Below, in pieces: positions 5,761-58,735 of a stretch of DNA of 64,000 nucleotides. The stretch comes from Halarcobacter sp. GTDB lineage: Bacteria; Campylobacterota; Campylobacteria; Campylobacterales; Arcobacteraceae. How positions within the stretch are numbered: position 1 is the stretch's first letter; each line of letters opens with the position of its first letter. The stretch is taken from positions 2,604,001 to 2,668,000 of the forward strand of contig NZ_OY780939.1 of assembly GCF_963675975.1 (NCBI RefSeq). The letters are read 5' to 3'. The position numbers and the translations under genes were made by a program. The notes below the pieces were generated by a model. That model had not been told where the DNA came from, made no database searches, and saw only the letters and a program-made list of their open reading frames with translations.

Positions 5761-5767
5761 CAAAGAA

Positions 5768-9549: not shown

Positions 9550-10191
9550 TTAACTTGCTATATCTAAAGTGTTTGGCAAGTTATGTCTAATATTTCTTTT
9601 TTTAACATAGTTATTTAATCCAATATGATTATTATAACCTAAAAGTTTAGCAATTTTTCTAACAGATAAACCTACTGCTAATAACTCTTCTATTTTATCT
9701 CTTTGTTTATCAAATTTAGATTTTTGAATAGTACCTTTTGGCTTACCTAAACTTTCACCTTTTAATTTTTTAGCAGTAAGTGCTTCTTTTGTTCTTAAGC
9801 TCATTAAATCTTTTTCTAAATTAACAGTCATAGATATTACACCTAAAATCATTTGAGTTAACATATCTTTATCATCTACTAAGTCAAGATTTTGTTTTAC
9901 TACAATTATTCTAATTTTATTAGAAAGTAAAAATCTAACAATCTCTAAAATAGTTTCTATTGTTCTTCCAAAAACATTTAAATTATAAACTAAAAGTGTA
10001 GATGAAGATTCACAACTTTTTAAAAAATCCAACATATTTTTTTCATCATCTGGAGTATCAATTACTATCTCAATCTCCTTGTAAACTGAAATATTGTTTC
10101 TACTTTTATAGTCAGACAAACCTTTCTTTTGGGTTTTAGTATACGACTCATTATTATTATTAACTCTTACAAAACTGAAAATTTTAGACAT
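9550..10191 (-). CDS. Serine-recombinase-like protein with degenerate active site
   Basis: 213 residues with resolvase/invertase organisation: an N-terminal catalytic-fold domain (1-140), then KKLKGESLGKPKGTIQKSKF and a Hin-type helix-turn-helix (IEELLAVGLSVRKIAKLLGY). The usual YARVS start is FVRVN here, so the nucleophilic serine is Asn, and the usual DRLGR motif reads NVFGR, losing the Asp and first Arg. The Arg of the first motif is kept. A catalytically dead, DNA-binding derivative is the simplest reading. It is divergent from ubiX across a 236-bp AT-rich gap. Confidence 0.75.
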   Translation of the reverse strand: MSKIFSFVRVNNNNESYTKTQKKGLSDYKSRNNISVYKEIEIVIDTPDDEKNMLDFLKSCESSSTLLVYNLNVFGRTIETILEIVRFLLSNKIRIIVVKQNLDLVDDKDMLTQMILGVISMTVNLEKDLMSLRTKEALTAKKLKGESLGKPKGTIQKSKFDKQRDKIEELLAVGLSVRKIAKLLGYNNHIGLNNYVKKRNIRHNLPNTLDIAS

Positions 10192-10427
10192 CTTTATTCC
10201 TTTAACAAAATTATAAATTTATATATAAATATCATACAATATGTTTACTTATATATAGTTTTTTATTATACAAAATGATATACCTTTCCAACTTACACTT
10301 TTCTTAAATTTTGATTAAATTTATAAGAAATTTTATAATTTTTTTATTAGTTTTTTTTGACTTTTGAAAATAAAGGGATTTTTGGCTAATATCTAACTCT
10401 TAATAAAAACTAATGAAGGTTTTGAAA

Positions 10428-10982
10428 GTGAAATTAGTTGTAGCTATAACCGGTGCTAGTGGTGCAAAACTTGGACTTAAATTTATCCAAAACTTACCAG
10501 AAAGTATTGAAGTGTTTGCTGTTTTATCAAAAAGTGCTAAAAAAGCACTAAAGCTTGAAGAAGGTATTGATATTACAAAACTTTTCAAAGAAAATGAAAA
10601 GATTCATATATTTAAAGAAAATCAGATTGAAGCTCCTATTTCTTCGGGTTCATTTAAAACTGATAAGATGATAATACTACCTTGTTCTATGAATACTTTA
10701 GCAAAATGCTCTGTTGGTATTTCAGATAATCTAATCACAAGAGCTTTTACTGTAATGTTAAAAGAGAAAAGAGAAATAGTACTTGCCCCAAGAGAGATGC
10801 CTTTTTCAACCATTGCACTTGAAAACATGCATAAGCTTTCTCAACTAGGAGTAATAATTGCGCCTCCTGTTTTGGCGTACTATTCAAAACAAAACTCATT
10901 AGAGTTAATGGAAGACTTTATGATTGGTAAATGGTATGATTTACTTAGAATTGAGCATAATTTATATGAAAGATGGAAATAG
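10428..10982 (+). CDS. ubiX: UbiX-family flavin prenyltransferase
   Basis: About 184 residues. Begins KLVVAITGASGAKLG (FMN-binding Rossmann-like fold), with SSGSFKTDKMIILPCSMNTLAKCSVGISDNLITRA and the C-terminal REMPFSTIALENMHKLSQLGVIIAPP, all standard for UbiX/Pad1. It makes prenylated FMN for UbiD-type decarboxylases. I chose GTG 10428 over ATG 10413 because AAGG sits 8 nt before the GTG and the protein then starts where family members do; the ATG would add five residues. No ubiD is in the window. Confidence 0.9.
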   Translation: MKLVVAITGASGAKLGLKFIQNLPESIEVFAVLSKSAKKALKLEEGIDITKLFKENEKIHIFKENQIEAPISSGSFKTDKMIILPCSMNTLAKCSVGISDNLITRAFTVMLKEKREIVLAPREMPFSTIALENMHKLSQLGVIIAPPVLAYYSKQNSLELMEDFMIGKWYDLLRIEHNLYERWK

Positions 10983-10984
10983 AT

Positions 10985-11473
10985 ATGCAGGTTAACGATA
11001 ATACAACAACTTATAGAAAAGCAATATATAGTGGTACTTTTGATCCCATAACTAACGGTCATATGGACATTGTCAAAAGAGCTACATATATTTTTGATGA
11101 AGTGATTATAGCAGTTGCAAAAAGTGAAATGAAAAGTCCTATGTTTACACACGAACAAAGGGTAGCATTTGCCCAAGCAGCTACAAAAGATATGCCAAAA
11201 GTAAAAGTTATTGGATTTGATACTTTATTAGTTGATTTAGCAAGTGAACTTAAAATAAATACGATTATAAGAGGTCTAAGAGCTGTATCAGATTTTGAAT
11301 ATGAACTACAAATGGGATATGCAAACTCATCAATAAATAAAAAACTTGAAACACTTTATCTAATGCCTACATTAGAAAATGCTTTTGTTTCATCTACAAT
11401 TGTAAGAGAAATTATTCGATTTAATGGGAAATTTGAACACTTAGTTCCACAGAAGGTATTAGAATGTATGTAG
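10985..11473 (+). CDS. coaD: Phosphopantetheine adenylyltransferase
   Basis: About 162 residues with SGTFDPITNGHMDIV (nucleotidyltransferase TxGH motif), RGLRAVSDFEYELQM and the FVSSTIVREI signature. Catalyses the penultimate step of CoA synthesis. ATG 10985 follows GATGGA by 7 nt and is preferred over ATG 10973, which overlaps ubiX. Its 3' end overlaps tmk by 10 nt, so the run ubiX-coaD-tmk-hisS is an operon. Confidence 0.95.
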   Translation: MQVNDNTTTYRKAIYSGTFDPITNGHMDIVKRATYIFDEVIIAVAKSEMKSPMFTHEQRVAFAQAATKDMPKVKVIGFDTLLVDLASELKINTIIRGLRAVSDFEYELQMGYANSSINKKLETLYLMPTLENAFVSSTIVREIIRFNGKFEHLVPQKVLECM

Positions 11474-44875: not shown

Positions 44876-45175
44876 TTAAACCTTTTTGTATTTGTGTGTT
44901 AGTCTAACAAAATCGTAAAAATCACTTAACATCAAGTAACGTATTTGTATATCTTCAAATTTTTTATGAACTATTTCAATTCCTTCATTATAAAGTCTAA
45001 CATCCTCAACAAACTCATGGGGATATTCTAGTTTTTCCTCTTTTATTGTAGGAAAACACTCCATAAATTGAGCAAATAGTTTATTTACTGTTTCCTCTTG
45101 CTCTTTAGTTGGAGATTTTAAAAACCCTTTTAAAGTCTCAAACTCTTCACAAATCTCTACTAAACACTTGTGCAT
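44876..45175 (-). CDS. Hypothetical protein (99 aa)
   Basis: Helical, soluble; starts HKCLVEICEEFETLKGFL, no named motif. Overlaps the ArsC-like gene by 16 nt, so the two are translationally linked. Confidence 0.6.
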   Translation of the reverse strand: MHKCLVEICEEFETLKGFLKSPTKEQEETVNKLFAQFMECFPTIKEEKLEYPHEFVEDVRLYNEGIEIVHKKFEDIQIRYLMLSDFYDFVRLTHKYKKV

Positions 45176-45582
45176 GAATCACTGCTTTGACAAGTACCAA
45201 TCTCTTTTTTAGTATCTAACTCTTGATTTAAGGCACTGTTTAATTTAGGAATGTCAAAACCACATATTTTTGTATCATCAACTTGGATAAGTGGTCTTTT
45301 TATAAGAATTGGTTCTTTTATCATAAGTTCTACTAACTCATCTTTTGAATACTTTTCTATATTTATCTCGCCACTTTTAACTTGCGGGGCAAATTGATTT
45401 ATTATCTGATTTTTTTCTAAGCCCTCAAAAAAACTATTCAGTGTAGTAGTATCCCAGTTTGTTGAAAGCATCGATTTTACTTCAAACTCAATGCCATTTG
45501 CCATTAATAGCTCTTTTTGTTTTTTATTACCTGCACATCCGGGTTTTTCATAAAATGTAATACTCTTTTTTACATAAAACAT
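45160..45582 (-). CDS. ArsC/Spx-like thioredoxin-fold protein (nitrogenase-associated type)
   Basis: 140 residues: ITFYEKPGCAGNKKQKELL with the ArsC-like active-site cysteine, then EPILIKRPLIQVDDTKICGF (R-P-L motif). The C-terminus adds a Cys-containing tail (GTCQSSDSCTSV). Resembles the ArsC-related nitrogenase-associated family; no nif genes are in the window. Confidence 0.75.
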   Translation of the reverse strand: MFYVKKSITFYEKPGCAGNKKQKELLMANGIEFEVKSMLSTNWDTTTLNSFFEGLEKNQIINQFAPQVKSGEINIEKYSKDELVELMIKEPILIKRPLIQVDDTKICGFDIPKLNSALNQELDTKKEIGTCQSSDSCTSV

Positions 45583-45591
45583 TTTTGCTCC

Positions 45592-46155
45592 TTAATCCAT
45601 ATAGGGTATATCTAAATTTGCATCTCTATCACTAGCTGTAAAATCAAAACTTGTCTCAACGATAAGTTTAACAAGAGATTTTTCTATAACTTTTACTTGT
45701 AACTTATGATAATTGTTGTTTGAGATATTGTTCTCTATCTCCATTTTATAATATCCTAAAATAATAGGATGAATTTTTTCTTGATTTTTTAATAATTCAT
45801 CTAAAAAAAGTTTTAATTTAGAGATATCATATTCATCTATTTTTTTTAGTTTTCTAACCAAATTTCTAACAAATTGTTTTGGCTGGTAACCTTCACTCAT
45901 ATCTAATAACTTCGACGCTGCATAAAGGTCTGCATCTTGTGCTGAATAATTATATAGATACCTAAAATGGTCACAAACTAAATTTACATATTTTGGATAA
46001 TGTTTCAAAACAAAAACCAACTCTTTTAAGTCTCCATCAATCAATACTTGAAAAAGTGTAGCTGTTCTTTTCTCTATTTTATCCCAATGGTTTCCATCCT
46101 CTTTAAAATCACCAAGAAACCTATCGTATACGTTTAAATCATAATTTTCTTCCAT
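45592..46155 (-). CDS. Hypothetical protein, paralogue of the 55.6-56.3 kb MoxR-locus protein
   Basis: 187 residues. KIEKRTATLFQVLIDGDLKEL aligns with KIRNRTRMLFRSLVDDDFTEL, and EYDISKLKLFLDELL...ILGYY with EFDHSELKEYLEKII...ILDYY of the product at 55648-56349; the relation covers about 150 residues. No known domain. Lies 9 nt upstream of the ArsC-like gene, on the same strand. Confidence 0.65.
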   Translation of the reverse strand: MEENYDLNVYDRFLGDFKEDGNHWDKIEKRTATLFQVLIDGDLKELVFVLKHYPKYVNLVCDHFRYLYNYSAQDADLYAASKLLDMSEGYQPKQFVRNLVRKLKKIDEYDISKLKLFLDELLKNQEKIHPIILGYYKMEIENNISNNNYHKLQVKVIEKSLVKLIVETSFDFTASDRDANLDIPYMD

Positions 46156-46243
46156 AAAATTGTATATGCAATAATCATACCTTTTATTGATAGTGGTATA
46201 GAAATTGTATATAATACCCTTTCGAATTATAAAAAGGTTAATT

Positions 46244-47431
46244 ATGCTATCAAAATATTCATTTGGAACTTACAGAACAACATATCAAAATCCCCTACAT
46301 AAAGAAGCTCTAGCATTTGCACTTGACAATGGTATCACACATATTGATACCTCTTCAAACTATATGCATGGTGAAGCAGAGATTTTAATAGGACAAATGT
46401 TAGAAAATAGAAATAGAGAAGATTTTACAATTGTTACTAAAGGTGGTTACATACAAGGTGAACTTTTAAAACAAGCTCAAAATGGATATGAGATTGATGA
46501 GTTGGTTAAATACGACCAAGATTGTTATCACTCAATCTCTCAATCGTTTATAGACCAAGAGATTCACAATAGTTTAAAAAGACTAAAAACAGACTATATT
46601 GATGTTTATTTACTTCACAATCCAGAGTATTACCTGATGAAAGAGATTAAAGCAGGTATGAGTGAAGAGCAGATTTTACACCATCACAAAATCATGCAAG
46701 TAAGAATCAAAAATGCTTTTGCCCTACTTGAACAAAGAGTAAAAGATGGGAAAATAAAAGCTTATGGTATCAGTTCAAACTCATTTTCAAAAAAAAGAAG
46801 TGATATTCACTTTTTAGAATATAAACATCTAATTGGTTACGCAAAAGAGTTAGCAGGAGAAAACCATAACTTTAAAGTAATACAACTTCCTATGAATATG
46901 TTTGAACACGATGGAATCAATGCAGCCAAATGGGCACACGAAAATGGTCTAGAAGTTCATGTAAACAGACCCCTAAATGCTATTTATAAAGATGATATGA
47001 TAAGACTTGCAAGTTATAGTGAGTGTATCAATTATGACACTCTTTTAAGTCAAGTAAGAGAGATACCAAATGATGCTTTCCAAGAAGCTTTAGAACAACT
47101 TCTAGGTATAGAAAATGAATACAGATGGGCAGGAGATGTGGATGATATAGTTGAGTATCAAGTTATCCCGTATATTGTAAATACAATCCAACTAGACCCT
47201 ATATATTTCCAACTAGTTGATAACTTTTTAGATGGTTATAAAAACAATGTAAAATCAAAAATCTCTAAAAAAGTTAGTGAAGAGTTAGAGATAAAAGAGC
47301 CTATAGATTTATATGCTTTAAAATACTTAGAAGAGCAAGAGTTTGTTACAAGAATACTTGTGGGTATGAGGGATAAGAGGTATGTTCAAAAGGTGTTGGC
47401 TTATAATGGTGTAGAGGTGAAGAAAAAATAG
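46244..47431 (+). CDS. Aldo/keto reductase
   Basis: 395 residues from ATG 46244 (AAAGG upstream; ATG 46205 would add 13 residues with no ribosome site). FALDNGITHIDTSSNYMHGEAE (catalytic Asp/Tyr region), TKGGYIQGE, KRLKTDYIDVYLLHNP, and C-terminal RILVGMRDKRYVQKVL. Longer than common family members, with an inserted helical segment. Last gene before the cassette-like array. Confidence 0.85.
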   Translation: MLSKYSFGTYRTTYQNPLHKEALAFALDNGITHIDTSSNYMHGEAEILIGQMLENRNREDFTIVTKGGYIQGELLKQAQNGYEIDELVKYDQDCYHSISQSFIDQEIHNSLKRLKTDYIDVYLLHNPEYYLMKEIKAGMSEEQILHHHKIMQVRIKNAFALLEQRVKDGKIKAYGISSNSFSKKRSDIHFLEYKHLIGYAKELAGENHNFKVIQLPMNMFEHDGINAAKWAHENGLEVHVNRPLNAIYKDDMIRLASYSECINYDTLLSQVREIPNDAFQEALEQLLGIENEYRWAGDVDDIVEYQVIPYIVNTIQLDPIYFQLVDNFLDGYKNNVKSKISKKVSEELEIKEPIDLYALKYLEEQEFVTRILVGMRDKRYVQKVLAYNGVEVKKK

Positions 47432-47592
47432 ATTTTTTATTTTTTATTTGTTGATTTAAAAAGGTTTTTGAGTATAAAGAATTAATTAAAATGCAAAAAG
47501 ATACAACTTTATTTAAAGATATTCTATTTTTTGATGTTTTTGAATAAATATAGCTAAATATACTCTTACTATAATAAATAATAAATAATTGG

Positions 47593-47639
47593 ATTTAAGT
47601 ACTTTATTTATATAATATACATTCAATAAATAGTTATGA
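47593..47639 (+). repeat. Promoter-like repeat, copy A
   Basis: ATTTAAGTACTTTATTTATA followed by TAATATACATTCAATAAATAGTTAT. Contains a TATAAT-type -10. Nearly identical copies precede units 4, 7 and (more diverged) 6. Homology with copy C extends upstream to about 47455. Confidence 0.8.
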
Positions 47640-48018
47640 TAATAATCGTGCAGTTATTTGAGAAACACAAAATAAGAATTTTATTAATTTACAATATGAT
47701 CAGTATAATTTTGTTATTGATTATATCTCGAGGGAGATCTATTATTTACGCAAGTGGCCCGGCAGGGTTGGTAGAAGGCTTAATTAAAATACTCGTCGTA
47801 ATATTTGCATTTTTTCTATTGATATGAAGTTTGACATTAAGCATACTTACTTACTCTTCTATTGCTTAATGGAATAATGAGTTTTGACGCTTGTAATAAT
47901 AATTACAGGTATTGCCGAAATTGGACAATTTATATTCAATAATTTGGTCTCAGCTGCATGTACCAATTTAACATTAATTGATATAAGTCAAGAAAGAAGC
48001 AGAATATATGAAACCTAA
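47636..48018 (+). pseudogene. Decayed small membrane protein gene (possibly VanZ-like), cassette unit 1
   Basis: An ATG at 47636 gives 63 residues with two hydrophobic stretches ending at 47827. A second frame from 47824 (MKFDIKHTYLLFYCLME) hits two adjacent stops at 47875-47880, then continues VLTLVIIITGIAEIGQFIF to a TAA at 48016-48018 that lies inside the unit end ACCTAAC. GIAEIGQFIF and the later LTLIDI faintly recall VanZ. A frameshifted, stop-interrupted gene is the likely reading; the family call is weak. Confidence 0.35.
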
Positions 48019-48084
48019 CAAATCAAAGGAGATCAATCAAAAACTCGCGGGCGGCTTTTTGATTGCTCATTTTAAATGTTATCT
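48013..48084 (+). repeat. attC-like recombination site, unit 1/2 junction
   Basis: 72 bp from ACCTAAC (fits RYYYAAC) to GTTATCT. The inner part folds on itself: ATCAATCAAAAAC at 48032-48044 pairs with GCTTTTTGATTGCT around a short GC-rich loop (TCGCGGGCG), with an offset of extra bases toward the ends as in attC bulges. Size is within the 57-141 bp range known for attC. Confidence 0.65.
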
Positions 48085-48136
48085 TAATTTTAGAAAACTA
48101 AATTTTACAAAATTTGATATATATTAGAGGGACTTT

Positions 48137-48826
48137 ATGCAAAAAGATATGCTTAATTTTTTAAATAATGAATTTTATAAAACAATGATTAAAAATAGAG
48201 GTGTAAGAGGTTTTCCTTTTTCAATTAAAAGTTTTTTTGCAATACTTGGCTCAGTATTTTTATTTTCTATAGTATTAAATAACATTTCTGAATTTTGTTT
48301 AGAATACGAGACAAGAAAAGCTCCTTTCTATATACTTTTATCTTTATTTATATTGTCAGGTGTGTATTTATTGATTAAAAGTTTTATTCCAATATACTTT
48401 TATTTTATAAGTAAATCATGGATTAAAATTATTGCAAATATTAATGATATTTACATTTCAGAGGTGAGGTTTGTTTATTCAATAATGAACGGTTATAATG
48501 TTTGGCATCCAAAAATTAATTATAGTTTTAAAGTTAATGGAACTATCTATAAAGGGAATAGATTATCCTTTGAAAATGAAAAGTTTGAATATAAATTAGA
48601 TCCTAACAGTAGTTCTAGATATCATAAGCCTAATTTTGATTTTGGGAATTGGGTCGAAACAAAAAAAGTTGAAATTTATTACAATCCTAAAAACCCTAAT
48701 CAATCAGTTATTTACAGAAAATTGAATGTGTTTAGTTTTATTGTTTATTCATTTATAGCTATTTTATTTTTATTAGTTTTTAGTACAATTTTTTTAAAAT
48801 TTATCTATTATTGCTATATAGTTTAG
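48137..48826 (+). CDS. DUF3592 membrane protein, cassette unit 2
   Basis: 229 residues. Two membrane helices near 27-47 and 65-90, a soluble beta-rich domain with INYSFKVNGTIYKGNRLSF and VEIYYNPKNPNQSVIYRKL (DUF3592 pattern), and a C-terminal helix. Function unknown. Preceded by GAGGG ribosome site. Confidence 0.75.
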   Translation: MQKDMLNFLNNEFYKTMIKNRGVRGFPFSIKSFFAILGSVFLFSIVLNNISEFCLEYETRKAPFYILLSLFILSGVYLLIKSFIPIYFYFISKSWIKIIANINDIYISEVRFVYSIMNGYNVWHPKINYSFKVNGTIYKGNRLSFENEKFEYKLDPNSSSRYHKPNFDFGNWVETKKVEIYYNPKNPNQSVIYRKLNVFSFIVYSFIAILFLLVFSTIFLKFIYYCYIV

Positions 48827-48840
48827 AAAAAGGATTTAAG

Positions 48841-48949
48841 TGATAATAAACTACACTCCACTGGGATTTAATTTTCACTCACATTTCAAATCAGTGAAGC
48901 CAGTAAAATTACCCTGCACTAACTTATGGGCTCATTTCAAACGTTAGTC
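48841..48949 (+). repeat. Candidate recombination site, unit 2/3 junction
   Basis: 109 bp from TGATAAT to GTTAGTC. The 3' half contains CACTAAC and GGGCTCATTTCAAACGTTAG, resembling the right end of site 1 (GCTCATTTTAAATGTTAT). Internal complementarity TTCACT/AGTGAA (around 48875-48897). Left boundary is weak. Confidence 0.45.
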
Positions 48950-48965
48950 TATAAAAAGAGAAAAA

Positions 48966-49514
48966 ATGGCAATAAAAATATTTTACTTAATTATTCTGTA
49001 TTCATTGTTTTCATTTATTATTTATTATATTACAGATTTTAGATTGAGAGAAAACTTTAATCATATTGTATTAATTATTGAAATTTTTATAGTTTTTCTT
49101 TTTTCTATATTTTTATGGATCAATATAAAGAATAGAAATATTAAGTATATGATAGATTCAGTCAGCTCATTTTTTGGATATGCTGGTGTGATTATGATAT
49201 TTTTTGGATTATTGCATTTTTCACTCATCTATCCTACGGCTTTTTTGATGCATAAACTAATTGAGCAACCTTTTAAAGAAAAGTTTGTAGTGGTAAATAA
49301 GAATATAGGTGCTTATCAATCTCCATGCACTTTCAAAATTGAATTAAAAAATAAAGACATATCAACAATAGCTTGTGTATCACAAGGAGCCTATAAAAAA
49401 ATCAAATTGAAAGACCAAGCTATAGTTGAAGGTTATAAGTCATTCTTTGGTTCTATTGTTAACAAAGTAAAAATTGACCATAAAACTAACAAAACAGTGG
49501 AGCCAATAAATTAA
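48966..49514 (+). CDS. Membrane protein of unknown function, cassette unit 3
   Basis: 182 residues: about four hydrophobic segments in residues 3-100, then a soluble tail (TFKIELKNKDISTIACVSQG). No family recognised. Good AGAGAAAA ribosome site. The unit's end motif AACTAAC (49484-49490) lies within its last codons. Confidence 0.65.
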   Translation: MAIKIFYLIILYSLFSFIIYYITDFRLRENFNHIVLIIEIFIVFLFSIFLWINIKNRNIKYMIDSVSSFFGYAGVIMIFFGLLHFSLIYPTAFLMHKLIEQPFKEKFVVVNKNIGAYQSPCTFKIELKNKDISTIACVSQGAYKKIKLKDQAIVEGYKSFFGSIVNKVKIDHKTNKTVEPIN

Positions 49515-49681
49515 ACTTTTATAATAATCGTCAGTTTCACACCAGTTTAAATAAAATGATACTAAAAAATACAATGAGTCATTATATCAAGTAATTTTTT
49601 ACTTTTAACATACATTATTTATATTAAAGTGCTAAGTATCAATATAAAATAAACTCTTTTAAAAATATAATAAATAACTAT

Positions 49682-49728
49682 ATTTAAGTACTTTATTTAT
49701 ATAATATATATTCAATTAATAGTTATAC
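49682..49728 (+). repeat. Promoter-like repeat, copy B
   Basis: ATTTAAGTACTTTATTTATA plus TAATATATATTCAATTAATAGTTATAC; differs from copy A at only a few bases and ends in the unit 4 start GTTATAC. Confidence 0.8.
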
Positions 49729-49740
49729 GGAGAGGAAAAT

Positions 49741-50292
49741 ATGAATAGAAAATCAATACTTTTACTTTTAATTTTTGCAATATCAGTTTTTGGTCAAAAC
49801 TTAAAAGATGAAAATTTAATGCAAGGGATACCGAAAGGTTTTAAACTTGGATTTAAAGATTATAATAAGAAAACTCATATTAGTTTAATTGAGTTTATTC
49901 CTAAAGGTGAAACTGTACAAAATTGGTCACAAATGATTACAACTAATATTTATCATAGAAATATTAACTTATCAGCAAAAGAGTATATTCAATATATGAA
50001 TTCTTCATGGAAGAAAAGTTGTCAAGACAACTATACAAAATTTTTACCAGATGGGAAAGAAAATGGTTATGAATATGCACTATTTATGGCATATTGTAAA
50101 AAAAATAAAATGACAAATAAAGAAGAATTTACATATTTCAAAGCTATTAAAGGAAATGATAGTTTTTATGTTGTACAAAAAGCTTTTTCATACAGTCCTA
50201 CAAAAGAAGAAGTTATTGCATCGATGAAATATCTACAAAATGTATTCATATGTGATACAAGACTGGATAATTGTCCGAAAGTAGTTAAGTAG
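49741..50292 (+). CDS. Secreted protein of unknown function, cassette unit 4
   Basis: 183 residues with signal peptide (ILLLLIFAISVFGQ). The mature part contains KGFKLGFKDYNKKTHISLIEF, FIPKGETVQNWSQMITTNI and paired cysteines near the C-terminus (FICDTRLDNCPK). The ETVQNWSQM pattern is reminiscent of uncharacterised secreted proteins in other proteobacteria. GGAGAGG ribosome site. Stop codon overlaps GTATAAC. Confidence 0.7.
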   Translation: MNRKSILLLLIFAISVFGQNLKDENLMQGIPKGFKLGFKDYNKKTHISLIEFIPKGETVQNWSQMITTNIYHRNINLSAKEYIQYMNSSWKKSCQDNYTKFLPDGKENGYEYALFMAYCKKNKMTNKEEFTYFKAIKGNDSFYVVQKAFSYSPTKEEVIASMKYLQNVFICDTRLDNCPKVVK

Positions 50293-50425
50293 TATAACAA
50301 AACCTTGTAAAGAAAAAACAAAAGTATACTGCGGATAATTTAAACTTTTTAGAACAAAAAGCTAAAATGAAAACTGAAACAATCAAGTGGACTTGTAACC
50401 TTGTTTTTAAAGTCCAACGTTATGT
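50292..50425 (+). repeat. 134-bp junction element, unit 4/5 (attC-like)
   Basis: From GTATAAC to GTTATGT. It is homologous to the element at 52088-52221 and has exactly the same length: TAACAAA, then AAAGAAAAA, AGTATACT, GCG, TTTAAACT and AATCAAGTG occur in the same order. Its 3' end AAAGTCCAACGTTATG is attC-like. Confidence 0.6.
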
Positions 50426-50439
50426 ATAAGAAATAGAAT

Positions 50440-50784
50440 ATGAACAAAAAAATTTCAGAATTTATACCTTTTACAATGTCTTTTCTAAGTGGAGTGATAT
50501 TCTTTAATTGGAAAAGTGAGTGGATTGATAATATACAAGTCAATTTTATATTGATGGCATTAACTGTTATTATATTTTTGACATTAAGTATAATCTATGG
50601 AAACTTTCATATCAAAAAACACGGTAAGAATATTGTTATATGGCTAGGAGTTACTTTATCAAGTTTACTTGCCTTAATACAGGTATTTATTTTATTTATG
50701 GGAAGTATGGTACGGTATCTTCTAAAAGATACGAAGAGATTAATCAAAAAAGTGTCAGATACTATTTTACATAACATCATATAA
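50440..50784 (+). CDS. Small membrane protein, cassette unit 5
   Basis: 114 residues, three membrane helices (about 10-22, 33-52, 64-87), basic tail KDTKRLIKKVSDTILHN. Unknown family. The final codons contain the unit end ACATAAC and the repeat AAAAAAGTGTCAGA. Confidence 0.6.
   Translation: MNKKISEFIPFTMSFLSGVIFFNWKSEWIDNIQVNFILMALTVIIFLTLSIIYGNFHIKKHGKNIVIWLGVTLSSLLALIQVFILFMGSMVRYLLKDTKRLIKKVSDTILHNII
50742..50768 (+). repeat. 27-nt dispersed repeat, copy 1
   Basis: AATCAAAAAAGTGTCAGA followed by TACTATTTT; 25 of 27 bases match the copy at 52389-52415. The core resembles half of the palindrome GTGTCAGACAC. Confidence 0.6.
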
Positions 50785-50822
50785 TTTTTACTATCTTATT
50801 AGAAAAACATAATATAATTTTA

Positions 50823-50865
50823 AATATTATTTATATATAATATATTAGATAATTAATAGTTACAT
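50823..50865 (+). repeat. Promoter-like repeat, diverged copy D
   Basis: Contains ATATTATTTATATATAATAT and ends ATTAATAGTTACAT, matching copies A-C in order (T-rich, TATAAT-like, then ATAGTTA) but with more differences. Ends in the unit 6 start GTTACAT. Confidence 0.55.
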
Positions 50866-50881
50866 AAAGGAGACATAAGTA

Positions 50882-51313
50882 ATGGAAGAATATGAATATG
50901 CAGGTTTTTGGGTAAGGGTTGCAGCATCAATAATTGATACAATTATATTAGCAATGTTAACACTACCAATAACTATGATGATTTATGGTGATTCAATGTG
51001 GGAAAATGAATCTTTTATAATGGGACCAGCAGATTTTTTAATAAACTATGTTTTGCCAGCTCTTGCTGTAATATTATTTTGGCTTTATAAATCTGCAACT
51101 CCAGGGAAAATGATTCTTAAATTAAAAGTTCTTAATTCAGAAGATGGACAAGCATTATCTGTTGGACAAGCCATTGTGAGATACTTAGGTTATTTTATAG
51201 CAATGATTCCACTTTTTATAGGAATTATTTGGGTAGGCTTTGATAAAAGAAAACAAGGTTGGCATGACAAATTAGCAAAAACAGTTGTTGTAAGAAACAA
51301 AAAAATAATGTAA
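50882..51313 (+). CDS. RDD family membrane protein, cassette unit 6
   Basis: 143 residues. YAGFWVRVAASIIDTIILAML (R and D of RDD), second helix near 55-72, SATPGKMILKLKVL, then IPLFIGIIWVGFDKRKQGWHDKLAKTVVV. RDD proteins are small membrane proteins, some acting in ion exchange. GGAG 11 nt upstream of ATG. Confidence 0.88.
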   Translation: MEEYEYAGFWVRVAASIIDTIILAMLTLPITMMIYGDSMWENESFIMGPADFLINYVLPALAVILFWLYKSATPGKMILKLKVLNSEDGQALSVGQAIVRYLGYFIAMIPLFIGIIWVGFDKRKQGWHDKLAKTVVVRNKKIM

Positions 51314-51380
51314 TATATAAAGTACAGAAAAAGGTTTTTGAGAAATAAATATATTTTAAAATGCCTACACTCTCTTTGAG

Positions 51381-51468
51381 AAAAAGCAACCAGACACGTT
51401 ATTGAAGTTAAAGTTCTCTACACATTTGTAATTCTTTTTTGCCTTCAAAACTCTGTGGGTTGCTTTTT
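51381..51468 (+). other. Long-loop hairpin within junction 6/7
   Basis: AAAAAGCAACC (51381-51391) and GGTTGCTTTTT (51458-51468) are perfectly complementary, with about 66 nt between them. The right arm continues into ATTTTACTTTTT, so it could terminate transcription. The same stretch is missing from the otherwise similar region upstream of unit 1, so it looks like an insertion. Confidence 0.5.
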
Positions 51469-51593
51469 ATTTTACTTTTTCCAATAAATAAGTAACTAGA
51501 AAAATCTTATTTTGGAGAATATCAAATAGTTTTGATGTTTTTTAATAAATATACCAAAATAACCTCTTACTACAATATATAATAAATAAGTGG

Positions 51594-51640
51594 ATTTAAG
51601 TATTTCATTTATATAATGTACATTCAATAAATAGTTAGAC
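51594..51640 (+). repeat. Promoter-like repeat, copy C
   Basis: ATTTAAGTATTTCATTTATA, then TAATGTACATTCAATAAATAGTTAGAC. Similarity to copy A extends about 60 bp upstream (TTTTGATGTTTTT-AATAAATATA) and again at AAAAAGGTTTTTGAG (51328). Confidence 0.8.
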
Positions 51641-51682
51641 ATCGTGTTGAAAATAGCAATTTTAAAAAGGAAAATAAATAAT

Positions 51683-52093
51683 ATGAAAGATTTTTATAGT
51701 ACACGATATTTTCCAAAAGATATGCATACTGCATTAGGGTTTGATTCTATTCAAGGATATCTTGAAATGGCACATTGGTATCATAAAGGATATGTTAAAT
51801 TTGCAGATAATCATAAAAATAAAGATGAACATTGGAGTATATTATTTATTTTAAATCAACTTGAAGATGAAGGTTATATAAAAACAGAATAGATTGAATA
51901 CAAAAATGAGGATAAAGAAGATTATTTGGAGTTAAAACAAATTTCTTTAACAACTTCTGGACATAAACTTTTGGATGAATTAAGAGAAAAAAGTAAACGA
52001 GGTCAATTAAAAAAAAGAGTTACAAATATAATTTGGACAATAACAACTGCAATTATTACTACATTGATAGTTTTAAAGATAAAAGGTGTCTAA
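51683..52093 (+). pseudogene. Winged-helix-like gene interrupted by an in-frame amber codon, cassette unit 7
   Basis: 69 codons from ATG 51683 (KDFYSTRYFPKD; FILNQLEDEGYIKTE) end at TAG 51890-51892; the same frame continues for 66 codons (ISLTTSGHKLLDELREKS, then a membrane helix TNIIWTITTAIITTLIVL) to TAA 52091-52093 inside the unit end GTCTAAC. The split domain looks like DUF2513-type winged helix (EDEGYI ... LTTSGHKLLD). Either a pseudogene, a sequencing error or a shorter functional product. Confidence 0.6.
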
Positions 52094-52221
52094 CAAATCA
52101 TTGGAAAGAAAAACGAGAGTATACTTGCGATTTTAAACTAATATTTTGTAAACTAAATTTAAAAGTAGGATTGAAGAATCAAGTGTAAAATGCTGAAATT
52201 ACAAACTTTTAAGTGTTGATT
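52088..52221 (+). repeat. 134-bp junction element, unit 7/8 (attC-like)
   Basis: From GTCTAAC (fits RYYYAAC) to GTTGATT. Same length as, and alignable with, the element at 50292-50425. The start TAACAAATCATTGG and mid-motif AGTATACTTGCG are shared. Overlaps the stop codon of unit 7. Confidence 0.6.
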
Positions 52222-52447
52222 AAACAGACATAAAAGATTAAAGGTTCAAATCATTTTGCCTACTTGTTCCTCAAGTTAACCATTATAGATAAGGAGAAAT
52301 CAGTGCCATTAACCTCTCAAAGAACAATTGGTACAGACTAAAAAGAAATTGAGTTGCAACTTACCTAATGAATATCACAATGCAATAAAATCAAAAAAGT
52401 GTCAGACTCTATTTTCATAAATAAAATAATTAGGAGTAAAATAAATA
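52222..52447 (+). other. 226-bp leader before the DUF262 pair
   Basis: No gene of normal size. A strong site AAGGAG at 52291 precedes a GTG (52303) that opens only 12 codons (PLTSQRTIGTD) and, after the stop, 8 more in frame (KEIELQLT), which looks like a gene remnant or leader peptide. It also holds the second 27-nt repeat. Confidence 0.35.
52389..52415 (+). repeat. 27-nt dispersed repeat, copy 2
   Basis: AATCAAAAAAGTGTCAGA followed by CTCTATTTT, two mismatches to 50742-50768. Located 33 nt before the DUF262 start. Confidence 0.6.
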
Positions 52448-53755
52448 ATGGCATTATTAAAAGATGAATTAGAAATTTCAAAAATAATAGATATACTTAA
52501 AATAAATTTAACTTTACCTTCATATCAAAGACCATATAGTTGGAGTATAAACTCTTGTAATACTTTATTTTTTGATATATATGAAGCATTTAATAGTGGT
52601 ATTGATGAATATCGTATTGGGACTATTATTTTACATAAAGAAAATTCTGGAAAATATAATATTGTTGATGGGCAACAAAGGCTTACTACATTATCAATTC
52701 TTCTTTATTCGTTAGGAAATATAAATCAAAAACTTTTAAAAGAAAAATATAGCAAACTTTCAAATAATGCAATTATTCTAAATTATAGAATTCTATCAAA
52801 ACGAATCAAGGAAATAGATGAAAGAAAAATCAAAAAATTTAAAGAATATCTTTTAAAGAAATGTACCATAGTAAAGATAGTCACAAATACAGAACAAGAA
52901 GCATTTCAATTTTTTGATTCACAAAATTCACGAGGAAAAGAACTTGCTCCTCATGATTTACTAAAATCTTACCATCTAAGAGAAATGAAAAATGAAAATG
53001 AAGAAGAAAAAATTAAAATTATTAATTGTTGGGAAAATATTAAACAAGAATATTTATATGATTTATTTAAAAACTATCTGTATCCATTAATAAATTGGTA
53101 TAAAAGAAAAGATGGTCTTGGTTATTCTTCAAGTAAAATTAATTATTTTAAAGGGATAAAAGGGGCAAATAATTATAATTATTCTATATATCACAAAGCT
53201 AGCAATTTATATATAGAACAAATCAATTCAAATGGAGTAAATGAATTAATTTCATCAAATTGCATTAATCAATTTCAATTAACACAACCCTTAATTGCAG
53301 GAAGAAGATTTTTTAATTATTCACTTCATTATGGAAAATTATTAGAGAAAATACAGGAGCAAATCAATCATTTACATGAAAAAAGTACAATTCCAAGTAA
53401 ACGCTCAGGTGACATCTATATTAAACAGTTATACGAATGCTCTTTATTATTCTATGCCGATAGATTTGGGCTTGAAAATTTAAGCTCTTACGTAATGCAT
53501 TTACTTTATTCATGGTGTTATTCATTACGATTAACGATGAATGCTGTATATCAGCAAACAATTAATAAATATGCAAAGGGCCAACATGATAGAGTAAATT
53601 TGGGGATTGATATGTTTACAAAAATAAATGAAATGTCAGACCCAGAAGAATTGAAAATGATTTTACTTACAAAGCCTGATATTCATAAAAATAATAAAAG
53701 TAAGTACAAAGCAATATATGAATTTATCTTTGACTGGAATGGATGGAAAAAATGA
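52448..53755 (+). CDS. DUF262 (GmrSD N-terminal type) protein, cassette unit 8
   Basis: 435 residues. LPSYQRPYSWSINSC near residue 25 and IVDGQQRLTTLSILLYSL near 75 are the DUF262 ParB/Srx-fold signature; AFQFFDSQNSRGKELAPHDLLKSYHL follows in two parts (FDSQNSRGKEL, PHDLLKSYHL). No HNH motif is visible in the C-terminal half. DUF262 domains are nucleotide-dependent nuclease parts of GmrSD/BrxU-type restriction systems. AGGAG 11 nt before ATG; coupled to the next gene. Confidence 0.85.
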   Translation: MALLKDELEISKIIDILKINLTLPSYQRPYSWSINSCNTLFFDIYEAFNSGIDEYRIGTIILHKENSGKYNIVDGQQRLTTLSILLYSLGNINQKLLKEKYSKLSNNAIILNYRILSKRIKEIDERKIKKFKEYLLKKCTIVKIVTNTEQEAFQFFDSQNSRGKELAPHDLLKSYHLREMKNENEEEKIKIINCWENIKQEYLYDLFKNYLYPLINWYKRKDGLGYSSSKINYFKGIKGANNYNYSIYHKASNLYIEQINSNGVNELISSNCINQFQLTQPLIAGRRFFNYSLHYGKLLEKIQEQINHLHEKSTIPSKRSGDIYIKQLYECSLLFYADRFGLENLSSYVMHLLYSWCYSLRLTMNAVYQQTINKYAKGQHDRVNLGIDMFTKINEMSDPEELKMILLTKPDIHKNNKSKYKAIYEFIFDWNGWKK

Positions 53756-55560
53756 CAGATGATTTAATTATAATTCCTGTCTCTGATATTTTTGTTAACA
53801 ATAACTATATTATACCGATTTATCAGCGTAATTATGCATGGCTTGAAGTACAAATTGAGCAGTTGATTGAGGATATTGAAAGCTCTATTTATAATAATGA
53901 CAAAAGCTATTTCTTAGGAAATTTGATTGTTAACCAAGCAAATAATAATTTATATCAAGTGATTGATGGTCAACAACGATTAACTACACTGTATCTTCTT
54001 CAAAAATATTTAGGCCTTGAATTTCCAAAAGAATCTTTACGATTTGAAGCACGTGAAAACTCAAATCGTACTCTTTCTTCAATCGGATCTGAAATTAATT
54101 ATTTAAGTGAAGAATTATTAACACAAGAAATTTTAACTGGATTTAAAATAATTGAAAATTATTTTAAAAATCAGACAATTAATAAAGATAATTTTCTTCA
54201 GAAATTAAAACAAGTATTTCTCATTCTAGTACAAGTTCCACAAAATATTGATCTAAATCATTACTTCGAAATTATGAATACTCGTGGAGAACAATTAGAA
54301 TTACATGAAATAGCTAAAGCTAAATTATTAGATGCACTTAAAAATAAAGATGATCAGACAATTGCATCAATGATTTGGGAAAAATGTTCAGATATAAATT
54401 CCTATGTACAAATGAATTTTGACATTAAAGTACGTAAAAAAATATTTACTGAAGATTGGAGTAGTATTCATAAATCAATCTCTGATTTTGATTCATTAAA
54501 AAATAGAATTTCAATAGATGATACATCAATGGATAAAAAATTATTACATGATATTCTAAAGGAAAATAAAATAATAGATAATTCTTCCATAAATTTTGAA
54601 TATGAAAATGAGCACTTTGAGTCAACTATTTCATTTCCTAACTTTTTATTGCAAGTAAATGCAGTTATCGAAAAATCAATTGAAGATGAAACTAGTCTTG
54701 ATGATAAATTTTTTCTTAAAAAACTATCATGGGCGTGGGAAACACCTACTAAAGCAAAAGAATTCATATTTAAATTATTAGAATGTCGGGTTTTATTTGA
54801 TAAATATATATTAAAACGTGAATTTGCTAGAGACTATAAAGAAACAGGAAAATGGTCATTACAACGTTTAGAGAAATATCATGATAATAAAAAAAATAGT
54901 GATAAACCTAAATATGTTGGAACTTTAGTAAATGAAGTAATTGATAATAAAAGACTAAGAACCCTTCAATCTTGCTTACGAATAACTTATACATCACCGA
55001 AAACTATGCATTGGATTACATTAGTTTTATCAAATTTATTAAAAAAAGAAGATACTAACATAACAATCTTATTAGAAAATTATTGTAAAAAGAAAGTTAA
55101 AAATTCTAATTATCAAAATAGTAGTGGTTTTGGAGTAAAACGAATTGTATTTACTTATCTAGATTATTTAATTTATCGAGATGGCTATTCTTTGTATAAC
55201 AAAAAAATTGTAGTATCCCTACAAGATGATTGGCAATTTCAATTTAGAAGTTCTATTGAGCATTTTCATCCTCAAAATCCGACAGAGATAAGATATTGGG
55301 AACAAGATGATCTAAACAGTTTTGGTAATTTAGCCTTAATAACAGTTTGGGGGAATTCGAAGTTTTCTAATTTACCACCTGTTGGTAAAATTAATTCTTA
55401 TCCCAGTATTATTAATCAAAGTCCAAAACTAATAATTATGGAAGAAATGACAAAATTTGATGATGAAGGATGGACAGAAGATAAGGCAAAAAAACATAAA
55501 AACGAAATGTTCACTATCCTCGATAATGAAATTAATAAAAGTTATAAGAATATAAGTTAG
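53752..55560 (+). CDS. DUF262-DUF1524 (GmrSD-like) protein with HNH motif, cassette unit 8
   Basis: 602 residues from ATG 53752, which forms ATGA with the upstream stop (ATG 53743 would add three residues). PIYQRNYAWLEVQIEQLI and VIDGQQRLTTLYLLQ mark DUF262; YFEIMNTRGEQLELHEIAK is the second DUF262 motif. The C-terminus has the DUF1524 HNH pattern: IEHFHPQNP (His504) and SFGNLALIT...GNSKFSNLPP. Together with the first protein it resembles a split GmrSD-type IV restriction or related anti-phage system; this role is inferred. Confidence 0.85.
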   Translation: MTDDLIIIPVSDIFVNNNYIIPIYQRNYAWLEVQIEQLIEDIESSIYNNDKSYFLGNLIVNQANNNLYQVIDGQQRLTTLYLLQKYLGLEFPKESLRFEARENSNRTLSSIGSEINYLSEELLTQEILTGFKIIENYFKNQTINKDNFLQKLKQVFLILVQVPQNIDLNHYFEIMNTRGEQLELHEIAKAKLLDALKNKDDQTIASMIWEKCSDINSYVQMNFDIKVRKKIFTEDWSSIHKSISDFDSLKNRISIDDTSMDKKLLHDILKENKIIDNSSINFEYENEHFESTISFPNFLLQVNAVIEKSIEDETSLDDKFFLKKLSWAWETPTKAKEFIFKLLECRVLFDKYILKREFARDYKETGKWSLQRLEKYHDNKKNSDKPKYVGTLVNEVIDNKRLRTLQSCLRITYTSPKTMHWITLVLSNLLKKEDTNITILLENYCKKKVKNSNYQNSSGFGVKRIVFTYLDYLIYRDGYSLYNKKIVVSLQDDWQFQFRSSIEHFHPQNPTEIRYWEQDDLNSFGNLALITVWGNSKFSNLPPVGKINSYPSIINQSPKLIIMEEMTKFDDEGWTEDKAKKHKNEMFTILDNEINKSYKNIS

Positions 55561-55605
55561 TAAAAATATGATAATTAATTGAACACACTACTATATAATC
55601 AACAG

Positions 55606-55634
55606 TTTAAGTGAGATTCTTTACCTCACTTAAA
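55606..55634. terminator. Bidirectional terminator after the DUF262 pair
   Basis: TTTAAGTGAG, loop ATTCTTTAC, CTCACTTAAA: perfect 10-bp stem between convergent genes, immediately after the last cassette end motif AATCAAC (55597-55603). Confidence 0.65.
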
Positions 55635-55647
55635 GTTTTAAAATCAT

Positions 55648-56349
55648 CTACCCTAACTTCCCCACTAACTTCTCCAACCCCTTCTTCTGCAAAATATGCA
55701 ACCCACAATCCTCTATCCACTCCATAGCTTTCTCTTGATAATAATCCAATATTATCTTATGAACAGATTCTTTTATACCTATAATCTTTTCCAAATACTC
55801 TTTTAACTCACTATGGTCAAATTCTTCAAAACTTTGAAGTTTGAAATATAAAGCTTCTAATAAACTATCGTCTATAAACTCTTTTGCTTTTTCTAAAAAC
55901 TTTGTTGCTTCTATTTCATCTGCAACTATGTCATTCCACTTTCTTCCTGTTTTTAACTGATCTATTGCCACAGGTAAAAATACTGGAACTAAATCTAATA
56001 CTTTGTTTAATTCAGTAAAATCATCATCAACTAAACTTCTAAAAAGCATCCTTGTTCTGTTTCTTATTTTTACTCTTAGATTATCGTTTTGGATTACATC
56101 ATTATGTAGTAGTTGAAATCTTTTTAGTGCTGGTAGTTTGGAGTGATTGAAAGCCATGATTGATACTAGGGGTTCTTTGTCGGCTATTTGTTCCTCCCTT
56201 GAGCCATTTGGTCTACAAAATGCCCAATAGAGTCTTGCTTCCATATCTTCGTGATTTAAATATTTTTCATCACCTAAGCTTTCAAAATCCTCTTCATCTT
56301 TTAGTAGTTCGACCTCATCTTTATAGGTCAAATTGAATAACTCTTCCAA
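55648..56349 (-). CDS. Unknown protein of the MoxR-VWA locus
   Basis: About 233 residues from TTG 56349 (GAGG 10 nt upstream; TTG 56358 is an alternative with poor spacing). Helical, acidic, no named domain: LYWAFCRPNGSREEQ, IRNRTRMLFRSLVDDDF, FDHSELKEYLEKII. Its start overlaps the VWA gene, and a paralogue is at 45592-46155. Probably the third partner of the ATPase-VWA pair. Confidence 0.7.
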   Translation of the reverse strand: MEELFNLTYKDEVELLKDEEDFESLGDEKYLNHEDMEARLYWAFCRPNGSREEQIADKEPLVSIMAFNHSKLPALKRFQLLHNDVIQNDNLRVKIRNRTRMLFRSLVDDDFTELNKVLDLVPVFLPVAIDQLKTGRKWNDIVADEIEATKFLEKAKEFIDDSLLEALYFKLQSFEEFDHSELKEYLEKIIGIKESVHKIILDYYQEKAMEWIEDCGLHILQKKGLEKLVGKLG

Positions 56350-57550
56350 ATCTTTCAAACCTCGTAATATTTTTCTTTTCGCTTACAACAAAAAGTGTTG
56401 TACAAACTAAAGCTTCAGTTATGTCAAACTCACCATCAGTTAAAACCATCAAAAGATTATCACTTTTTATATCACTTGACTTTTTTAAGTATCTAAGAAC
56501 CTCATCGAAGTCTGTTCCCCCATCACTTTTAGGAATAAACAAATCATCTTCAATCAAAGGATTAAAAGAATCAAAGTTTATAATATGCTCCTCTTTTACC
56601 TTTAAATCAAAAGGAAGTACAGTTACTTTGTACTCATAAAAACCATCACATACGTCTTTTACTACACCTAAGAACTTTTTGTATTCATCAAGTGTTACAC
56701 TAGAACTACTATCAAGGGCAATATAAACCTCTATAAGCTCATCACTTTTTTTACTTCCTGGAAGATAAAGCCCACTATGAATAAACCTTTTATTTGGCCT
56801 TTCATAAGTAGTTGTTTTTTCAAATAATGATGAGATAAGATACTCTTTTAACATATCTTGTAAAGATATCTCAGGCTTGATTAGAGTATCTATCTCTATT
56901 TGCATCCCAATATATTCTCTTGAAGTCTTTTTAGCTATTGATAAAGCTTGGATTATGATACCATCAAGTTTTTCTCTCTCACCTTCGTTGGTTTTCTCAT
57001 CATTAACCTCTTCTATATCCATTTTTGATTCATCATAGATATGTGCTTTTAAATCCCCTTTTTCATTTGGGGTTGTTTTTATCTCTTGCTCTTTTTTCTC
57101 TTCACTGCTTGAGTCTTCGTTTTCCTCTTCTTGATTCTCTTTATATAAAATCTCATAAACCTCTTCAACACACTTGTCTTTTAAATCTAAATCTAATACT
57201 TCATCAACAGGCATATTACCTACATTTGAGAAAGTTGACATAATAAGATTTACAACCAAATCACAAGCTTGATTCCAAAGCTTTTTCTCTCTAGTTTTTT
57301 GTCTATATGGGTGTTTTAAAACTATATGCAATAAAGCATGAGCATAAAGGTAAGTTATCTCTTCACTTGAATATCTTTCAAGCTTTTTTAAATCAATATG
57401 TATCTCACTACCATTTGTTTGGAAAGCAGAGTTTTTATTCTCTTGGTATATTGTAGGTATAGATAGTGCTAATACTGATAAAAAGGGATGGTTAAACAAA
57501 AAATTAATTCTAATTTTTTGAAAAACCTCATCATATGATGTACTCACCAT
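56321..57550 (-). CDS. DUF2201-type VWA-like protein with putative metallopeptidase N-domain
   Basis: About 409 residues (ATG 57550, GGAG upstream; ATG 57571 possible). N-terminal domain has TYLYAHALLHIVLKHPYR (HxxxH-like, DUF2201_N), a Glu/Lys-rich linker about 150-200, and a C-terminal VWA-like fold with MIDAS-type YIALDSSSSVT, SDGGTDFDEVL and MVLTDGEFD. Such proteins act with MoxR AAA ATPases as chaperone-like pairs. Overlaps moxR by 20 nt. Confidence 0.85.
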   Translation of the reverse strand: MVSTSYDEVFQKIRINFLFNHPFLSVLALSIPTIYQENKNSAFQTNGSEIHIDLKKLERYSSEEITYLYAHALLHIVLKHPYRQKTREKKLWNQACDLVVNLIMSTFSNVGNMPVDEVLDLDLKDKCVEEVYEILYKENQEEENEDSSSEEKKEQEIKTTPNEKGDLKAHIYDESKMDIEEVNDEKTNEGEREKLDGIIIQALSIAKKTSREYIGMQIEIDTLIKPEISLQDMLKEYLISSLFEKTTTYERPNKRFIHSGLYLPGSKKSDELIEVYIALDSSSSVTLDEYKKFLGVVKDVCDGFYEYKVTVLPFDLKVKEEHIINFDSFNPLIEDDLFIPKSDGGTDFDEVLRYLKKSSDIKSDNLLMVLTDGEFDITEALVCTTLFVVSEKKNITRFERFGRVIQFDL

Positions 57551-58538
57551 ATTGCTCCATCCAAGCATCAAATGCTTCTAGTTCAGCTATATCCTCATCT
57601 TTTACAATAAGGTCTTTTATAAGCATCACATTAAACTCAACTGGCAGGTGTTTTACATACTCAAAAAGATTTACTGCCTGATGGCTCTCTTTGTACTTCT
57701 CTATAATAGCTGCACATAGGGCATATAATGCACTTGGCTCTTCAGGGACTGCTTCACTTTGCCCTTCAAGGATTGCATCGATATTTGGTAGAGTTTTATA
57801 TACTTTTACAAAAGAGATAAACTCTATTCCAGCTCCATATCCAACTGTACCATAGATTATTGGGTGAAGTTGATTTATCTCTTCATTTTTCTGGATTATA
57901 TTTGAAAGCATATTCCAAGCTCTAGGTGTACAAAAAGCAGGATTTGTTTCAGTTGAACCTGGAACTTCTGAGCTTAATAAATCTGGTCTAAATCCTAAAA
58001 ATCCAATTACAAATGGATGAATCTCATTTTTAATAGCCCAAACTTTAAAGTCATCATATTTTGCTTCAAGTACAATATGAACCATTCTATTGATAAGTGG
58101 ACTAGGAAGTTTAAATACAATCCCTTTATCATCTATTTTATTTCCAGCACAAATTATTCTCCAACCTTTAGGAAGTGTGTACTCTCCTATTTTTCTATCA
58201 AGTACTAGTTGATAAATAGCAGCTTGTACTGATAGTGGAGCTGAGTTTAACTCATCTAAAAACAATATCCCTTTTGAGTCTTCATCATTTGGTAAGAAAA
58301 TTGGTGGCATCCATTTTGTTTGCTCATTGCTAATAGTTGGTATCCCTCTTAAATCAACTGCATCAAGTTGAGAAAGTCTTACATCTATGAGTTCCAAGTC
58401 ACTCTTTTGGGCGATATCATTTACAATATATGATTTTCCAATACCTGGGCTTCCATGGATAAAGCAAGGGATATCTGCTTCTAGTAGTGCCTGTAATTGT
58501 TTATATAATTCTGAAGTTCCAATTGCTGGTGTAATCAT
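57531..58538 (-). CDS. MoxR-type AAA+ ATPase
   Basis: 335 residues: Walker A IHGSPGIGKSYIV, Walker B GILFLDELNSAP, sensor-1 region IICAGNKIDDKG and arginine-containing PSPLINRMVHIV. MoxR ATPases remodel or insert cofactors into partner complexes with VWA proteins. Followed by the VWA gene and the unknown protein; preceded by a 62-residue ORF 8 nt upstream. Confidence 0.88.
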   Translation of the reverse strand: MITPAIGTSELYKQLQALLEADIPCFIHGSPGIGKSYIVNDIAQKSDLELIDVRLSQLDAVDLRGIPTISNEQTKWMPPIFLPNDEDSKGILFLDELNSAPLSVQAAIYQLVLDRKIGEYTLPKGWRIICAGNKIDDKGIVFKLPSPLINRMVHIVLEAKYDDFKVWAIKNEIHPFVIGFLGFRPDLLSSEVPGSTETNPAFCTPRAWNMLSNIIQKNEEINQLHPIIYGTVGYGAGIEFISFVKVYKTLPNIDAILEGQSEAVPEEPSALYALCAAIIEKYKESHQAVNLFEYVKHLPVEFNVMLIKDLIVKDEDIAELEAFDAWMEQYGEYII

Positions 58539-58546
58539 TTATCTTC

Positions 58547-58735
58547 CTATGAAAGTTTGGCGTTTTTTAATAGTTTGTTTAACTCTTCATTAAACTTTGA
58601 AACCAAATCTAATACTTTTGATTTATCTTCATTGTTTAATTTAAATTTAGAGTCGATTGTCTCAAATGTTTTTAAATTTGACGTAAAAATATTTTGCATC
58701 AAGTCTTGTTTGATTTTATCTTCTAACAAGCCCAT
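58547..58735 (-). CDS. Small helical protein (62 aa)
   Basis: LEDKIKQDLMQNIFTSNLKTF and a Lys/Leu-rich C-terminus; probably all helical. Overlaps the end of the hemerythrin gene by 13 nt and precedes moxR by 8 nt, so it belongs to the same transcript. Family unknown. Confidence 0.55.
   Translation of the reverse strand: MGLLEDKIKQDLMQNIFTSNLKTFETIDSKFKLNNEDKSKVLDLVSKFNEELNKLLKNAKLS

Follow-up and report, generated by a model that had tools for sequence, protein, structure and literature searches.

What is the run of about 8 kb, all of its units on the plus strand in one orientation, that lies at 47.5-55.6 kb of a 64,000-nt window of the Halarcobacter sp. genome (bases 2,604,001-2,668,000 of the complete 3.27-Mb chromosome)? 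In the usual picture an integron consists of one integrase, one attI site and one cassette array. The block is a real but decaying integron cassette array that has lost its own integrase and belongs to the CALIN type (cluster of attC sites lacking an integron integrase). It is not a plain attC cluster, however. Because three or four attI heads are kept, one of them with a remnant of the 5′ end of the integrase gene intI, the array resembles several integron platforms, beheaded and set in tandem, and a beheaded integron array carrying several attI heads is very probably the right description. In what follows, compared genomes of the Arcobacteraceae are denoted by G numbers and loci by L numbers.

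This description starts from a 108-nt repeat at 47529, 49618 and 51530, which was overlooked in the original prediction for this DNA. In G063 and G056, whose integrons are intact, the stretch that separates intI from the first cassette aligns with the repeat as far as the start codon of intI, and by this homology the repeat is an attI head. The units at 47633, 49722 and 51634, and probably that at 50859, would thus begin at attI and not at attC, and several GTTR unit starts that had been taken for attC ends are better explained as repeated heads (three clear, a fourth probable). Head 1 (47529..47639, plus strand, GTTA crossover at 47633) scores 59.4 bits with a head model, is 90% identical to head 4 and has orthologous heads at the same locus in G068 (L077:1464-1549) and G060 (L081). 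Head 2, which includes a portion of the intI-attI spacer, occupies 49601..49728 (plus strand, GTTA at 49722; 50.1 bits) and is 88% identical over 83 nt to the head of a second array of the same chromosome beside guaA. Just ahead of it, at 49579..49600 on the minus strand, lie about eight intI codons, which align with the beginning of the gene in G063, G056 and G060. Relative to G060, the intI start codon has been lost from between two TTTTTTAC repeats, as though the intervening DNA had been deleted. Head 4 (51530..51640, plus strand, GTTA at 51634; 68 bits) matches the guaA-locus head at 83% over 112 nt (E 9e-24). Head 3 (50809..50865, plus strand, GTTA at 50859) is a probable head of a second type. 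Across 46 nt it shows 87% identity (E 1e-8) with the attI that adjoins intI in L160 (Arcobacter sp. SZUA-449), and it matches heads in L078, L183, L184 and L038 as well; heads of this type also precede single-cassette loci in the Halarcobacter sp. genome.

Heads 1 and 4 are mutually 86-90% identical, whereas head 1 shares 82% with its positional counterpart in G068, so that copying or conversion of heads took place in this lineage. A TATAAT motif stands 22-23 nt before the GTTA crossover in all four heads (22 nt in head 1), and heads 2, 3 and 4 are each followed within 19-49 nt by the start of a gene; from this layout the heads may act as cassette promoters. Upstream of heads an intergenic element of about 65-75 nt recurs with 81-85% identity, at 51381-51460 of the window, L184:6959-7032 and L183:8083-8147, and a further copy lies at L197:2055-2127, beside an RDD homologue in G060. 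Conserved stretches ahead of the heads (element E1 and a 'tail') were weighed as a candidate left edge of a mobile platform and may be ordinary dispersed repeats.

The locus itself has no integrase: a tblastn search for intI across 45001-58600 of the window found no homology. The array had been described as integrase-less, which holds at the locus, where only the eight or so codons at 49579-49600 are left, and fails for the genome, in which a whole-genome search found an intact IntI. This sole full-length IntI (320 amino acids, aa; 2,179,658-2,180,611; TIGR02249 401.8 bits, cut-off 265) is encoded 471 kb from the array with its own attI and with cassettes bearing attC sites (L017), and its closest relatives among named records include several Arcobacter sp. 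The complete integron and the window array have the attI core TAATAAATAGTTA and attC types in common; in contrast to the array, the former has an intact intI, and its attI is just 58-66% identical to the window heads. An overlapping gene pair at L017:2764-3412, one member nucleotidyltransferase-like (98 aa) and the other HEPN-like (119 aa), lies between attC sites of this IntI-bearing array and by inspection resembles a toxin-antitoxin cassette.

The attC sites were sought with a covariance model built from 17 sites of the Halarcobacter sp. genome and its relatives, none of them from the window. Two co-oriented sites close to each other (48012..48085 and 48880..48950, both plus strand) reach the IntegronFinder 2.0 default for a CALIN of at least two attC sites (PMC9024848). 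The first, belonging to cassette A, is better preserved than any other in the window (50.6 bits; E = 1e-8 for the window and 6e-7 for the whole genome), and its bottom strand folds better than shuffles (z -3.1). The second, the attC of cassette B, has an eroded R″ (38.3 bits) and folds no better than shuffles. A truncated attC at 49483..49513 (plus strand, 17.3 bits) consists of the R″-L″ half only and is 96% identical over 28 nt to an attC half in L038. Cassettes D and F have long-type attC sites, a type also found in the genome's own IntI array (L017). The site of cassette D (50290..50426, plus strand), whose R″ pairs exactly with the unit-start 7-mer, shares 71-87% with long attC sites of G068, G063, G032 and G099. 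That of cassette F (52088..52288, plus strand) is decayed, with about 75 extra nt and ATTATAG as R′; its R″ is exact to the unit start, and it shares 73-80% with long attC sites of G099, G068, G032 and L017. Fold signals at 48880, 50290 and 52086 are absent or weak relative to shuffles, and an Rfam scan of 46-57 kb of the window gave no match.

Co-oriented plus-strand units with GTTA-type start 7-mers and the reverse complement at the gene end had been predicted, and this architecture is borne out: R″ is complementary to the cassette-start 7-mer, as in a cassette array. When the start 7-mer of each of the eight units was compared with the sequence at most 40 nt away from the stop codon of its gene, three units matched exactly at 7/7 (49722/50292, 50419/50769 and 51634/52088), three at 6/7 and two at 5/7. 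Three or more exact pairs have P = 0.003 when starts are permuted against stops and 5e-5 against other stop regions of the window, so that shuffled controls do not pair equally well and the pairing is beyond chance. A fourth exact pair, 52215/55597, had been claimed and is rejected as a cassette boundary since 52215 falls inside the long attC at 52088-52288. The aligned R′ of this attC is at 52282 (ATTATAG), and its best partner is ATATAAT at 55593, with 6/7. The array differs from a complete integron in that intI does not stand beside the predicted attI sites. The proposed CALIN-type array with diverged, AT-rich attC sites is upheld by the window-free covariance model, by block replacement in a sister genome (below) and by the occurrence of genuine integrons elsewhere in this genome and in the family; it falls short in that the block also holds three or four attI heads.

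Relatives show what has happened at this locus. In members of the genus with both flanks, the flanking genes are 3.3 to 10.1 kb apart. In the sister genome G068, where the left-flank protein is 94% identical, homology extends over 47001-47639 of the window, through the attI crossover, and begins again at 55636; between these points only the heads match. The G068 block comprises a head, a dCTPase-type anti-phage gene, an attC, a gene, an attC, transporters, one more gene and a remnant attC. Far from being fixed among relatives, the block has been replaced wholesale in this species-level comparison, its content between 47639 and 55636 being wholly different. The dCTPase-type anti-phage protein, the first G068 cassette at the locus, is encoded at L077:1572-3311 (PADLOC, 482.7 bits). 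G060 has its intact IntI at the guaA locus and retains, at the locus of the window array, a disrupted 5′ portion of intI (codons 1-71) adjacent to the head, indicating that this locus once held a complete integron whose content has since turned over. As intI is absent here from both Halarcobacter sp. and G068, an IntI elsewhere may have done part of the turnover.

Heads are not confined to the window. On the chromosome the four window heads lie at 2,651.6, 2,653.7, 2,654.8 and 2,655.6 kb; the others are at 2,701.0 and 2,696.1 kb (guaA array), 2,180.8 kb (intact intI), 2,136.3, 2,237.2 and 1,944.4 kb. The genome therefore holds about ten heads at six loci, only one of which adjoins an intact intI. 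The 108-nt repeat recurs at 2,701,027-2,701,138 (minus strand), beside guaA, ahead of a clean array with canonical attC sites. This locus (L038, G000:C1:2690001-2710000) has at 6100-11300, minus strand, a clean cassette array behind a beheaded integron. Heads or intI also adjoin guaA in G068, G060, G063, G032, G065 and G079, so that guaA looks like a recurrent integron site of the family. The heads at 2,237.2 and 1,944.4 kb each have one cassette, closed by one attC. At L184 (G000:C1:1938000-1947000; 5433-6420, minus strand) an intI-less head is followed by a cassette for a TIR-domain protein (PADLOC spbK, 145.9 bits) and one attC, with an agmatinase-like gene adjoining. At L183 (G000:C1:2230000-2240000; 6204-7258, minus strand) a head, the gene of a 297-aa protein of no family and an attC adjoin an lpdA-like gene.

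Across 104 genomes of the family, an intI match occurs in 30 (many of them broken), attC sites in 53, heads in 50, and heads together with an intI match in 19, an overlap counted by hand from lists in which weak single head matches near the cut-off may be due to chance. Adjacent heads at most 10 kb apart make up 14 pairs, spread over 11 genomes, and in every pair the two heads have the same orientation (sign test P = 1e-4). These pairs were tallied manually from the head listing, with the window included and its fourth head left out. Tandem co-oriented attI heads are thus present in at least 11 of the 104 genomes. Leftward from the crossover, the heads have about 100-270 nt or more of the intI-attI spacer in common, and their similarity ends at the crossover. 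Sites of the attC type lie between heads in G012, G062, G086 and G065. Among the tandem loci read, an intI fragment is found between heads only at two loci of G042. These two loci (L175 and L176) carry the same intI fragment (codons 1-109) and a head, and are about 95% identical to each other.

The cargo of the window array is mixed, and all of its genes are on the plus strand. Cassette A contains only a short open reading frame of 63 aa without a family (47636..47827), a doubtful gene. Cassette B encodes a DUF3592 protein of 229 aa (48137..48826; PF12158, 35.5 bits). Open reading frames define the genes of cassette C (48966..49514; 182 aa, no family) and cassette D (49741..50292; 183 aa), the latter starting 19 nt past the GTTA of head 2. 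Cassette E has an open reading frame of 114 aa (50440..50784), and ACATAAC at 50769 pairs with its own unit start. The next gene (50882..51313) encodes an RDD-family membrane protein of 143 aa (PF06271, 101 bits). Genes C, E and RDD each precede a head, and the intervening attC is at most truncated or eroded. Genes matching that of cassette D occur in only eight of the 104 family genomes and those matching the RDD gene in only four, its own genome included in either count. Cassette F (51683..52093) has a weak DUF2513 profile match and an in-frame TAG at 51890, given which its gene is probably a pseudogene. Cassette G contains two overlapping genes. The first (52448..53755) encodes a GmrSD_N/DUF7834 protein of 435 aa (PF03235, 110 bits; PF25202, 214 bits; PADLOC HEC-06) and the second (53743..55560) a type IV restriction-like GmrSD_N/GmrSD_C protein of 605 aa (PF03235, 103.5 bits; PF07510, 50.7 bits). 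The right end of the array (55593..55636, plus strand) consists of the eroded R″-like ATATAAT and a terminator hairpin (55606-55634), followed by the conserved flank where G068 homology restarts.

The best-supported course of events is as follows. Three or four platforms, each with attI and a promoter-like element and at least once with intI, would have been brought together at an old integron site, either through duplication or through the action of IntI on circles bounded by attI. Later deletions would have taken intI and parts of the attC sites, while the heads would have been kept because each drives the cassette behind it; they may still take cassettes from the distant IntI in trans. In class 1 integrons, attI-ORF-attI units (ORF, open reading frame) are efficiently excised by IntI1 (PMC12901181), which makes the formation of tandems by IntI acting on attI-bounded units plausible.

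The same assays, in which IntI1 also excises delta-attI cassettes (PMC12901181), lend themselves to a rival account, possible though on balance unlikely, in which the tandem heads are not platforms decayed in place and instead are mobile attI-bounded units, resembling the delta-attI type, that IntI excises and inserts. In its favor, the G012 head comes after an attC plus about 145 nt, and intI is absent between heads at most of the tandem loci read. Against it, pieces of intI are kept at head 2 and at both G042 loci, which point to whole platforms having lost intI, and no common left boundary of such a unit was found. Much less probable is a plain CALIN, in which the distant IntI inserted cassettes at a secondary site and the 108-nt repeats are repeated cassette promoters and not attI. 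The intact IntI elsewhere in the genome and the lone attC loci would fit, and off-target insertion has been proposed as an origin of CALINs (PMC8618304). The alignment of the repeats with G063 and G056 up to the intI start, the intI codons at head 2 and the break of G068 homology at the attI crossover all speak against it. An ordinary variable island (defence or genomic) with chance GTT/AAC pairs and no integron, to which the GmrSD-type pair in the cargo and the many short inverted repeats expected in AT-rich DNA might point, can practically be dismissed in view of the attC model matches, the attI heads, the pairing beyond chance and the sister comparison.

Several points weigh against the beheaded tandem. 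The head scores come from a model built from 11 sequences, with the window heads among them, and head 3 is assigned from 46-54 nt only. A consensus promoter scan did no better than on shuffles, such a scan being uninformative in this AT-rich DNA. Only one attC (48012) folds clearly better than shuffles, so that most of the array may be immobile. Where the cassette D and RDD genes have relatives elsewhere, no recognizable attC or head lies within 1.5 kb. Finally, the relatives were compared at the level of species and not of strains, and the block replacement in G068 could stem from homologous recombination or from differential loss from a longer ancestral array.

Among known systems, the IntegronFinder category CALIN shares with the window array close co-oriented attC sites, at least two in number, and the lack of a nearby integrase; the array differs in that attI heads, three or four of them, and a remnant of intI are retained, and most of its attC sites are eroded. 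In Xanthomonas, ancestral integrons occupy the ilvD locus and intI has been inactivated or lost in many lineages (PMC12444791). The likeness to this sedentary integron lies in an ancestral platform at a conserved locus, arrays that outlast intI and CALINs at other fixed loci (PMC12444791), whereas the window has several heads in one array and the Halarcobacter sp. chromosome is scattered with intI-less heads. The delta-attI cassettes of class 1 and 2 integrons likewise place an attI-derived site behind an ORF in an array, giving a second attI downstream of the first (PMC12901181). They keep mostly 14-18 nt of attI, with one type keeping 244 nt (PMC12901181), while the window heads span about 110-130 nt with a promoter-like element, are of predicted attI activity and belong to chromosomal arrays, in at least 11 genomes of one family. 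Integrons of Campylobacterota are known at the phylum level (PMC8618304). No description of tandem attI heads in Arcobacteraceae was found in the open-access literature, an absence that is not proof. As far as the searched papers show, two things are new: the presence, across a family, of chromosomal arrays that contain full attI heads as tandems, and a genome in which about ten heads go with a single intact intI.

The attI heads thus outlive and outnumber intI in the Arcobacter family. Ongoing loading of cassettes in trans is conceivable, if rather doubtful. A broader proposal of one integrase with many docks is to be held only tentatively, as improbable on present evidence: the distant IntI would load and empty some ten heads at six loci in trans, some with a single defence-like cassette, and throughout the family the head itself would undergo duplication and relocation as a unit bounded by attI. 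Should orphan heads indeed load from a remote IntI, one enzyme would serve several loading sites per genome, and loading in trans would explain how array variability persists after intI has been lost. With anti-phage-type cargo in the GmrSD pair of the window, the dCTPase of the sister genome and the TIR protein elsewhere, these arrays bear on the spread of defence genes in these bacteria.

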